Source of the DNA: Deltaproteobacteria bacterium
GTDB lineage: Bacteria; Desulfobacterota; Binatia; UBA9968
Direction of reading: 5' to 3'
Assembly: GCA_005878685.1 (NCBI GenBank)
Contig: VBLN01000027.1
Coordinates: forward strand, 19,552 to 30,937
Length of the DNA: 11,386 nucleotides
Shown: one piece after another, positions 1,325 to 5,790 of the stretch
Layout: every line of letters starts with the position of its first letter
Numbering within the stretch: the stretch's first letter is position 1
Translations under genes and position numbers: made by a program
The notes under the pieces: generated by a model
Told to the model about the DNA's origin: nothing
The model's input: the letters and a program-made list of their open reading frames with translations, nothing else
Database searches by the model: none

Positions 1325-2104
1325 ATGGCGTTAAAAGACAAAATCGAAGAAATAAAAAAGGACATCGTCGAGAGCCATGTGTGGAAGGCGATCTTCCGCC
1401 ACGGCTACGAAGACACGCCGCGAAACCGTGTGCTCATGGTCACAGCCAACGTCTGGCTCCACCTCCATCCGGCCAAAGTGCGCCGCCACGGCGTCCGGAT
1501 GCGCTTTACGTGGTGCATGGGCGGTCTCACGTTCCTGATGTTTCTCATGACGGTCATCACCGGCATCTATTTGATGTTTTATTACCGCCCCGTGGGGGAG
1601 TACGCCTTCGCCGACATGCAGTACTTGGAACAGGACATGCCCTTCGGCATGCTGATGCGCAACATGCCCCGCTGGGCGGCACACGCCATGGTTGTTTTCG
1701 TCTGGCTGCACATGTTCCGAGTCTTTCTTACCGGCTCGTACAAGCCGCCGCGCGAGTTCAACTGGATCGTCGGTGTGCTCTTGCTGGTGCTGACCCTGTT
1801 GCTGAGCTTTACGGGTTACCTCCTGCCCTGGGATCAGCTCTCGATCTGGGCCGTGCCCGTCGGCTCGAACATGGCGCGGGCTTCACCCCTGCTCGGCCAT
1901 GAAGGACCGTTCCACGAGTTTGTCGGTGCCAATCCGATTTACGACGCGCGCGCGTTTCTTTTCGGCGGCGGAGAGATCGGACCACACACGCTGCTGCGCT
2001 TCTATATCTTGCACTGCATCTTCATCCCGCTCGTGGCCAGTCTCTTGATGGCGGTCCATTTCTGGCGCATTCGGCGCGACGGCTTTTCTGGACCGTCGCT
2101 CTGA
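1325..2104 (+). CDS. Cytochrome b6-like subunit (N-terminal half of cytochrome b)
   Basis: This is the diheme membrane subunit of a bc/b6f-type quinol oxidoreductase, 259 aa, with about four transmembrane helices. Helix D has His230 and His245, 15 residues apart as in b6 rather than 14 as in mitochondrial cytochrome b. Helix B has His129. Its partner position 115, reading R-N-M-P where bovine reads R-Y-M-H, is Pro (CCC, 1667-1669) instead of the heme bL histidine. The TGYLLPWDQ Qo-region block is intact. Cys64 in the TWCMGG motif matches the b6 cysteine that binds the extra heme c(i). A soluble, charged extension of about 58 residues precedes helix A. The ATG at 1325 has only a weak GGA upstream. 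The gene ends at SGPSL, as is typical of split cytochrome b, and subunit IV follows 40 bp later. Confidence 0.93.
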   Translation: MALKDKIEEIKKDIVESHVWKAIFRHGYEDTPRNRVLMVTANVWLHLHPAKVRRHGVRMRFTWCMGGLTFLMFLMTVITGIYLMFYYRPVGEYAFADMQYLEQDMPFGMLMRNMPRWAAHAMVVFVWLHMFRVFLTGSYKPPREFNWIVGVLLLVLTLLLSFTGYLLPWDQLSIWAVPVGSNMARASPLLGHEGPFHEFVGANPIYDARAFLFGGGEIGPHTLLRFYILHCIFIPLVASLLMAVHFWRIRRDGFSGPSL

Positions 2105-3102: not shown

Positions 3103-5790
3103 ATGGCGGTCAGAGGCATCGACGAACGCGAGGAGAAGAAATCATACGGCAGCGTGTTTCTGCTCGGCAGCGCCCTGCTCGTTGTCGCCACTCTATGGTC
3201 GTTTTGGGACGACAACATCACGCGCCGGGCGTGGAAGGCATATCAGGCCCATTTCTACCGTCTCGATTATCAAAAGGCCAAGGCGGCCTACGCCGAAGAG
3301 GACAAAAAGCTCCAGGCCGACCCGGCCTATCAGGAGCTGGCCAAGAAGCTCGCCGCTGAGAAGCACAGCCTCGAGAAAGGCGAGTTGTCCAAGAAGCTGA
3401 AGGCGTTGGAGAGCCAGGAAAAAACCGCCACCGTCCGCTTCGGCGAACTGGACCAGGAAGTCAAGTTTATCAAGAGCGAGCTCGAAGAGGCGTGGTACGA
3501 GCACGACCACGCGCTGCAGCAGGGAAGATCCACCAAGCCGTACGAAGAGATTATCCGCGGGCTGAACGAGCGGCAGGCCAAATGGGAGCCTGCGGTTGAA
3601 AAAGCGCGGCAGGAAAAAGACCGGATCAAGGAAGAAATCAAGAAGATCACTTCAGGCGTCAAGGAGCTGGAGGACGAGCTGTCCAAAAAAACCGCCGAGC
3701 GGGACAAATGGCTGACGCCGATCCAGAACGCCACGATCGTTCAGAATCCCGTAGTCTTCTACAAGATACCGAATATCCGCCAGGTCGTACTGAACGAGTT
3801 CGACCGCAATACTTTCGACCAGCCGATCGCACGGGTGGATCGCTGCCAGACCTGTCATACGGCGGTCAACCGTCCCGGATTCGAAAAAGAGCCGCATCCC
3901 TACCGCACGCACCCGCGCCGCGAAGTGCTATTGGCCGATAACGCGCATCCGCCGGAAAAATTCGGCTGCACCCCCTGCCATGAAGGCCAAGGTCCTGCCG
4001 TCAACAGCCCCATGAAGGCGCACGGGGAGGTCCTGCCGGGCGAGCACAACTATTGGGAGCACCCGCTGCTGCGCGGCCCTAAGGTCCAGTCGAGTTGCGC
4101 CTCCTGCCATCTGAATATCCAAAGTTTTGAGGATGCCCCGCTGCTGGCTCAAGGTCAAAGGACCTTCGAGCAAATAGGCTGCACGGGTTGCCATCTAATC
4201 AAGGGATACGAAGACATTCCGAAGATCGGCCCGAGCCTCAAAAGGATCAGCGCAAAAGTCGATCCCAGCTGGATGGTCCGTTGGATCGAAAACCCGCACA
4301 AGTTCCGTCCCCGGACACGCATGCCCAATTTTGATTTCAAAGAGGATGAGGCACTGGCCATTACCGCCTTCCTGTGGTCGCTTTCCAAAGAGGAGGGCGA
4401 CAAATGGCTCCAGGAGCATCCCCTGCCTTCCGGTTACAGAGAAGGAGATCAGAATCTGGCGGCGCAAGGGAAGACTCTGGTGGAGTCCGTCGGCTGCAAG
4501 GGATGCCATGGCTTCGCTGACGGCGAGTTCTCCACGGTGGTCGGCAAGGAAAAAGATCTTGTTCCGAACCTCAAAGATATTGGCGCGAAGGTAGGTGCCC
4601 GCTGGATTTATCATTGGGTGAAGAACCCGCGCGACTTCTCCCCCGCTACGCGCATGCCGAGCCTGCGTCTGACCGATTCGGAGGCGTCGGCGATTACGAC
4701 TTATCTGACGACCTTGGGCAATAAGTCAGAGCCGATCGCGGGTGTTCAGGAGCGGCTCGCCGATAACAAGAATATCAAGCGCGGGGAGTCCCTGGTGCGC
4801 AAGTACGGATGTTTCGGCTGCCATGATATTCAGGGAATGGAGAAGGAGTCTCGCATCGGCGTCGAGCTTACGACCTTTGGCTCGAAGACCCTCGAAGAGC
4901 TGTTTTTCGGCAACCATACAGACATCCCCAATACTTGGGATGACTGGACTTATAACAAGCTCAAGACGCCCCGGACGTACGCCACCGAACGGGTCGAACA
5001 GGTAATGCCCCAGTTCGACCTTACCGATGACGACATCAAGGCCATCAGAATCGTGCTCGCCGGCTTCCAGGATAGGAAGGTGCCGCCCCGGTACCTGGCG
5101 GATCACGGCCTAAGGGTCACTCAGGTGGTTGAGGGGCGGAGATTGATGCATCAATACAACTGCATCGGCTGCCACGAGATCGAACGCCGGGGAGGATTTA
5201 TCCGAAAATACTATCAGGAAAATCCGACTCTCGCGCCGCCGGTTCTGAACGGCGAGGGAGAAAAGGTGCAGTCCCCTTGGCTCTTCAGCTTTCTCAAGGC
5301 GCCGTTCTCTATTCGTCCGTGGCTTCGATTGCGGATGCCGACCTTTGGATTCTCAGATCAGGAGGCGAACCTGCTCGTCAGTTACTTCAATGGACTTTCC
5401 AAGCTTGAGGTCCCGTACGCCTATTTTGACGAAGGCAAGGTCCCTCGAGAGCATTTGGACGCGGCGCGCGTCTTGGTTTCGAAAGACTACTTCAACTGCT
5501 TTAGCTGCCATCAGCAGGGAGAGAGGAAGCCTGAAGGCCCTGAGGAGGGCTGGGCGCCGGATTTGAATCTGGCGCGAAATCGCTTGAATCCGAACTGGAT
5601 TATTAAATGGCTGCAGGATCCGCAGAAGGTTCAGCCCGGAACCAAGATGCCGTCGTTTTTTCCGGGCGGGCCGGATAACGTCCTCGGAGGCAAGGATGAC
5701 AGACAGATTGAAGCCTTGAGAGATTATATCATGATGTCGGGCAAAGAGAGCGCGCCTGCTGAGAGCCGCAAGAAAGTCGCAAGGCGTTGA
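3103..5790 (+). CDS. Membrane-anchored octaheme cytochrome c of the bc complex
   Basis: An 895-aa protein in the place where cytochrome c1 or f would be, so probably the electron exit of the complex. Layout: a transmembrane anchor at residues 17-36, a long charged coiled-coil-like segment at about 50-200, then eight CxxCH heme sites with first Cys at 248, 289, 332, 360, 465, 570, 687 and 799. The last five each precede an MP motif (Met407, 518, 635, 745, 849) with similar sequence around it, so residues about 345-880 read as five tandem single-heme class I cytochrome c domains with His/Met ligation. The first three hemes form a different N-terminal domain lacking such Met motifs. GAGGA at 3091-3095, eight bases before ATG, supports the start. 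The C-terminus is basic (SRKKVARR). Covalent heme attachment and periplasmic location are inferred from the motifs and the anchor. Confidence 0.9.
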   Translation: MAVRGIDEREEKKSYGSVFLLGSALLVVATLWSFWDDNITRRAWKAYQAHFYRLDYQKAKAAYAEEDKKLQADPAYQELAKKLAAEKHSLEKGELSKKLKALESQEKTATVRFGELDQEVKFIKSELEEAWYEHDHALQQGRSTKPYEEIIRGLNERQAKWEPAVEKARQEKDRIKEEIKKITSGVKELEDELSKKTAERDKWLTPIQNATIVQNPVVFYKIPNIRQVVLNEFDRNTFDQPIARVDRCQTCHTAVNRPGFEKEPHPYRTHPRREVLLADNAHPPEKFGCTPCHEGQGPAVNSPMKAHGEVLPGEHNYWEHPLLRGPKVQSSCASCHLNIQSFEDAPLLAQGQRTFEQIGCTGCHLIKGYEDIPKIGPSLKRISAKVDPSWMVRWIENPHKFRPRTRMPNFDFKEDEALAITAFLWSLSKEEGDKWLQEHPLPSGYREGDQNLAAQGKTLVESVGCKGCHGFADGEFSTVVGKEKDLVPNLKDIGAKVGARWIYHWVKNPRDFSPATRMPSLRLTDSEASAITTYLTTLGNKSEPIAGVQERLADNKNIKRGESLVRKYGCFGCHDIQGMEKESRIGVELTTFGSKTLEELFFGNHTDIPNTWDDWTYNKLKTPRTYATERVEQVMPQFDLTDDDIKAIRIVLAGFQDRKVPPRYLADHGLRVTQVVEGRRLMHQYNCIGCHEIERRGGFIRKYYQENPTLAPPVLNGEGEKVQSPWLFSFLKAPFSIRPWLRLRMPTFGFSDQEANLLVSYFNGLSKLEVPYAYFDEGKVPREHLDAARVLVSKDYFNCFSCHQQGERKPEGPEEGWAPDLNLARNRLNPNWIIKWLQDPQKVQPGTKMPSFFPGGPDNVLGGKDDRQIEALRDYIMMSGKESAPAESRKKVARR

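Follow-up and report, generated by a model that had tools for sequence, protein, structure and literature searches.

Organisation of the locus

The window, by which we mean the whole 11,386-nucleotide stretch of DNA analysed here, lies on one contig (C138) of a draft Binatia genome that totals 3.79 Mb on 507 contigs and has a completeness of 80.6%. It carries an operon in which genes for a Rieske iron-sulfur protein, a cytochrome b N-terminal subunit, the cytochrome b C-terminal subunit and a c-type cytochrome with eight CxxCH motifs follow one another in that order, all on the forward (+) strand. In complexes of this family, quinol is oxidised at the Qo site and the electrons are split between the Rieske cluster and heme bL, with heme bL passing its electron on to heme bH, and with the high-potential electron travelling to a multiheme c-type cytochrome.

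The b6-type N-terminal subunit of cytochrome b (positions 1325-2104; 259 residues) matches the PF00033 profile with 141.4 bits (E = 3.8e-41), well above the family cut-off of 27.2, and is 97% identical to its counterpart in the closest genome, G016. It is followed by a petD-like gene for the C-terminal subunit (2145-2918; PF00032, 27.3 bits against a cut-off of 20.7), which forms one open frame with a single departure, F to Y, among its 114 family-invariant columns. Next comes the gene for the large c-type cytochrome (3103-5790), a single open frame of 895 residues whose eight CxxCH motifs are also present in the loci L031-L034, and whose product probably receives the electrons that leave the complex. 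The operon resembles the split cytochrome b / cytochrome b6 of b6f- and bc-type complexes (PF00033 together with PF00032) in possessing a two-subunit cytochrome b with an upstream Rieske gene, three of the four heme histidines and a gap-free match to cytochrome b6 through helix B. It differs from this known arrangement in having a proline at the position of the first heme bL histidine and, as in L031-L034, in the large eight-CxxCH cytochrome encoded downstream.

The Rieske gene upstream of cytochrome b is broken. Its 5′ part (805-981; 59 residues, 76% identical to G016) and its 3′ part (987-1313; 108 residues), which carries the CTHLGC and CPCHG motifs (the latter as CPCHGSG), were recovered as two tblastn pieces in different frames, and a MAFFT alignment with L031, L032, L033 and L034 places a frame-shifting deletion of 19 bases at the junction between them (981-987). 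Both parts are nearly identical to P0121, an intact Rieske protein of 175 residues known from a JGI record whose contig measures 4,060 bases; the protein includes the stretch that is missing here: 58 of 59 residues agree in the 5′ part and 107 of 108 in the 3′ part, giving 165 of the 167 compared. Since P0121 is intact, an almost identical lineage, be it from the same sample or another, carries the whole Rieske gene. At 1035-1037 the broken gene has an alanine codon (GCG), at a position where 112 of 120 homologues have Glu and 2 have Ala; this is a possible A-to-C change.

A proline at the position of the first heme bL histidine

Three of the four heme histidines on helices B and D of cytochrome b are kept (His129, His230 and His245), and the first is replaced by Pro115, encoded by CCC at 1667-1669; His120 is also present. 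In a HMMER alignment, residue 115 pairs with His86 of the cytochrome b6 chain 6rqf_I, a pairing that follows from the alignment being gap-free from query residue 60 (chain residue 31) through helix B. We take His86 of this chain to be a bL-type ligand, and His129 (codon at 1709-1711) is presumably a ligand of heme bH. The initial annotation of this DNA, made from its letters, had described a proline codon in place of a heme bL histidine with the other three ligands intact; both the open reading frame and the b6 alignment confirm this description. Its assignment of the ligand was correct, as was its account of the change as one of a single base.

Column 115 is otherwise occupied almost without exception by histidine. 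This holds for 29 of 29 family and order loci (the best non-own loci, drawn from 51 other genomes with a match), for 80 of 80 named loci (80 kept of 555, among which the nearest are Deltaproteobacteria and Candidatus Binatia MAGs), for 120 of 120 proteins (the best 120 of 8000 scored), and for 161 of 162 proteins in an enlarged set formed by adding 42 from a second listing to those 120, where the remaining protein has Arg; the four sets overlap in organisms. Close homologues in which position 115 is not a ligand, an arrangement that the initial annotation had allowed for, were sought in these sets and not found, and proline occurs at this column in none of them. We also considered His120 as a replacement ligand for heme bL. 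This candidate was set aside, as the residue is His in every row of the 29-, 80- and 162-member sets, beside His115, and for that reason is to be read as an ordinary feature of the family.

A conspecific cytochrome b was sought among the best 120 proteins listed, both for the whole protein and for residues 50-200, and no entry lies above 94% identity, although such a copy could hide inside a cluster, because the clusters were made at 90% identity. Likewise, a PF00033 search of the genome, which is about 81% complete, found no second cytochrome b.

Nature and sequence context of the changes in cytochrome b

Across 106 near-invariant columns of cytochrome b only two depart, H115P and T178P (CCC at 1856-1858), and both depart to proline. 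Both are A-to-C changes within ACCG, which on the minus strand reads as CGGT to CGGG. The original base at both sites was taken from the relatives: of the 29 loci, 23 have CAC with a C after it at codon 115, and 19 have ACC with a G after it at codon 178. Together with K99Q (codon at 1619-1621; Lys in the 29 family and order loci), the two proline changes are all that departs at the 192 family-invariant columns of the protein; all three are A-to-C, and all are among the nine amino-acid differences that separate it from that of G016. K99Q itself is probably natural, because Gln is found at this position in 6 of 162 homologues.

Because L024 and L030, which belong to the 29 relatives, likewise have 3 departures at these 192 columns, the number of departures in cytochrome b is unremarkable and only their kind is odd. 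A-to-C changes account for 3 of 3 departures in cytochrome b versus no more than 1 of the 29 departures in the comparison genes (23 at 2140 columns in rpoB, rpoC, fusA, rpsG and rpsL, 5 at 336 in the c-type cytochrome, and the one already described in the petD-like gene), a contrast for which a post hoc Fisher test gives p = 0.0008. If T-to-G changes are counted too, up to 3 of the 29 others qualify (fusA S109A, rpoC E177D and rpoB I301V, the last being a two-base change), and the contrast weakens to a p of about 0.004, calculated by hand. The sole possible A-to-C change outside cytochrome b is of ambiguous origin (GAA or GAG to GAC). A mutT-type mutator, with a genome-wide excess of A-to-C changes, was considered and finds no support in the count of at most 1 in 29 outside cytochrome b. 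Within the window, ACCG and CCCG are balanced in number (47 and 48, respectively).

On the minus strand, both proline changes resemble systematic GGT-to-GGG errors of Illumina sequencing. In the passages of Meacham et al. on which we rely (PMC3295828), GGT with its T miscalled as G is given as the strongest systematic Illumina error motif, and a T-to-G change after GG on the minus strand would produce the bases present at 1668 and at 1856. The corresponding passages of Schirmer et al. (PMC4787001) give CGG and GGG as the commonest 3-mers preceding substitutions on GAII and HiSeq instruments. The latter paper cites the motif of Meacham et al. as GGG to GGT, the opposite of what the original passage in PMC3295828 states; we followed the original.

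Broken and intact genes elsewhere in the genome

To find frame breaks, 350 kb of this genome (G000) and 800 kb of G016 were compared with proteins of relatives, using a cut of 45% identity and 100 residues. In G000, 79 genes passed and six were flagged, one of which (L307) was an antisense shadow containing stops and was dropped. This leaves 5 broken genes of 78 in this genome versus 0 of 94 in G016 (p = 0.018), in a sample that is biased, because the contigs with the Rieske and COX1 genes were fetched on purpose. Many of the contigs were chosen for matches to Rieske, COX1, bd, Nuo or ATP-synthase proteins, C480 among them, whereas C100 was picked by number. Without the Rieske gene and the two COX1 genes the comparison becomes 2 of 75 versus 0 of 94, which is not significant (p about 0.2, hand calculation).

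Besides the Rieske gene of the window, the broken genes comprise both of the COX1 copies found in this genome, a Rieske oxygenase-like gene and a gene for a transport permease. The COX1 copy on contig C290 (L240; 7131-8841, minus strand) is frameshifted, with a deletion of 44 bases (sized by hand), and none of its 201 family-invariant columns departs; the copy on C220 (L239; 1890-3613, minus strand) combines a deletion of about 49 bases, again sized by hand, with an internal TGA. The two-domain transport permease on C100 (L251; 320-2098) and the Rieske oxygenase-like gene on C480 (L306; 1-983) each show a frame break against G016. COX1-family copies split between frames were also seen in two relatives (G006:C773:2952-4225 and G012:C3:7096-8446). 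Near the breakpoints, exact words shared with the relatives place conserved stretches next to the breaks, an observation made with no proper control and from which we draw no firm inference.

The core genes rpoB, rpoC, fusA, rpsG and rpsL depart from the family at 1.07% of their invariant columns, which lies at the upper end of the range of 0.05-1.3% found in 17 family and order relatives; rplA, rplK, nusG and tuf, with one or two loci each, gave no usable columns in this comparison. The departures are mostly conservative, but include changes of G to R, E to W and A to P. The rpoC gene is whole, and the pieces of rpoB, fusA and tuf end at contig edges, with no frame break in any of the four. 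Open frames were likewise found for cytochrome bd subunit I (one frame), two ATP-synthase alpha/beta-type subunits and six Nuo-type antiporter subunits.

Origin of the proline codon

We consider it likely that the Pro115 codon is a sequence error, that is, a wrong consensus base in a rough metagenome-assembled genome. This reading is favoured because A-to-C in ACCG occurs twice in a single gene, because the Rieske gene next door is broken, and because there are other breaks in the assembly. The organism itself would then probably carry His115, as the examined relatives do, and would probably possess an ordinary b6/bc-type complex. The reads would have been generated by Illumina chemistry and, where local coverage was thin, a miscalled base may have passed into the consensus. 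Because Pro115 is judged to be an error, the membership of the real gene in PF00033 is not in doubt. Several points count against an error: the GGT motif leaves the deletions unexplained, base-level quality elsewhere in the genome shows no obvious excess of departures, the number of departures in cytochrome b is not high, the frame-break contrast loses significance without the Rieske and COX1 genes, the A-to-C contrast weakens when T-to-G is included, and ACCG and CCCG are balanced in the window. Of the three readings that the initial annotation had offered, it is accordingly the base-call error that we favour, with loss of function retained as a rival and the very unusual complex finding no support.

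Since the core genes look sound, the main rival is a real and recent loss, in which the bc/cytochrome c oxidase branch is no longer needed and its genes are decaying while respiration proceeds via cytochrome bd. The Rieske frameshift, H115P and T178P, and the frameshifts in both COX1 genes (one with an additional TGA) form a suggestive set, and the open frames of cytochrome bd subunit I and of the ATP-synthase and Nuo-type subunits, like the absence of frame breaks in rpoC, rpoB, fusA and tuf, are in keeping with it. We nevertheless think such a loss unlikely: the petD-like gene and the eight-heme cytochrome keep open frames with few departures, the other C290 genes that were matched each lie in one frame, and two of the broken genes (the C100 permease and the C480 oxygenase-like gene) lie outside the pathway. 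Moreover, split COX1-family copies occur in G006 and G012 as well, and the changes in cytochrome b bear the error signature described above. Apart from their breaks, the two halves of the Rieske gene and the COX1 of C290 show very good conservation, so that a loss could only have happened very recently. That a Binatia lineage is losing the whole high-potential branch (Rieske protein, bL ligand and both COX1 genes) and keeping cytochrome bd appears to us somewhat less likely again. A mixture of strains, in which the minor allele of a mutated strain entered the consensus of a mixed population, would fit with the genome being a draft bin and with the almost identical intact Rieske protein on record (P0121). 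It still requires a real dead allele, however, and leaves the shared error-prone context of the two proline changes unexplained, so that we regard it as highly improbable.

Least credible of all is that the complex works with an unusual heme bL site, whether five-coordinate or with another ligand such as His120. The one point in favour is that cytochrome b has an open frame and is conserved in other respects, at 97% identity to G016. Set against this are the absence of Pro115 from every relative examined, the presence of His120 in relatives that also have His115, and the frameshift in the gene for the Rieske partner. According to the relevant passages of PMC8138165, heme bL has two axial histidine ligands (H97 and H198 in the numbering of Rhodobacter capsulatus), and the mutant H198N, which like the protein described here has one bL histidine missing, shows no turnover. 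That mutant is engineered, affects the other ligand of the pair and has Asn in place of Pro; its inability to turn over makes it very unlikely that a complex lacking the ligand at position 115 would work. Pro115 looks like a sequencing or assembly error and not like the mark of a novel respiratory enzyme, with nothing found here that supports a working bL site with one histidine.

Missing ligands in draft genomes

Catalytic residues that are absent from draft metagenome genomes can pass for new biochemistry. Here, simple checks, namely whether the change is A-to-C in ACC and whether neighbouring genes are broken, point to error. Were the loss true, it would represent respiratory pruning in a phylum that is described, in the part of PMC8262859 drawn on here, as encoding aerobic methylotrophy. 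Within the enlarged set of 162 proteins, at least one heme histidine is missing in four, and the losses differ in kind or place (L230 in two proteins, P245 in one, and R115 together with L129 in one); judged from the proteins rather than from their DNA, these look like one-off errors.
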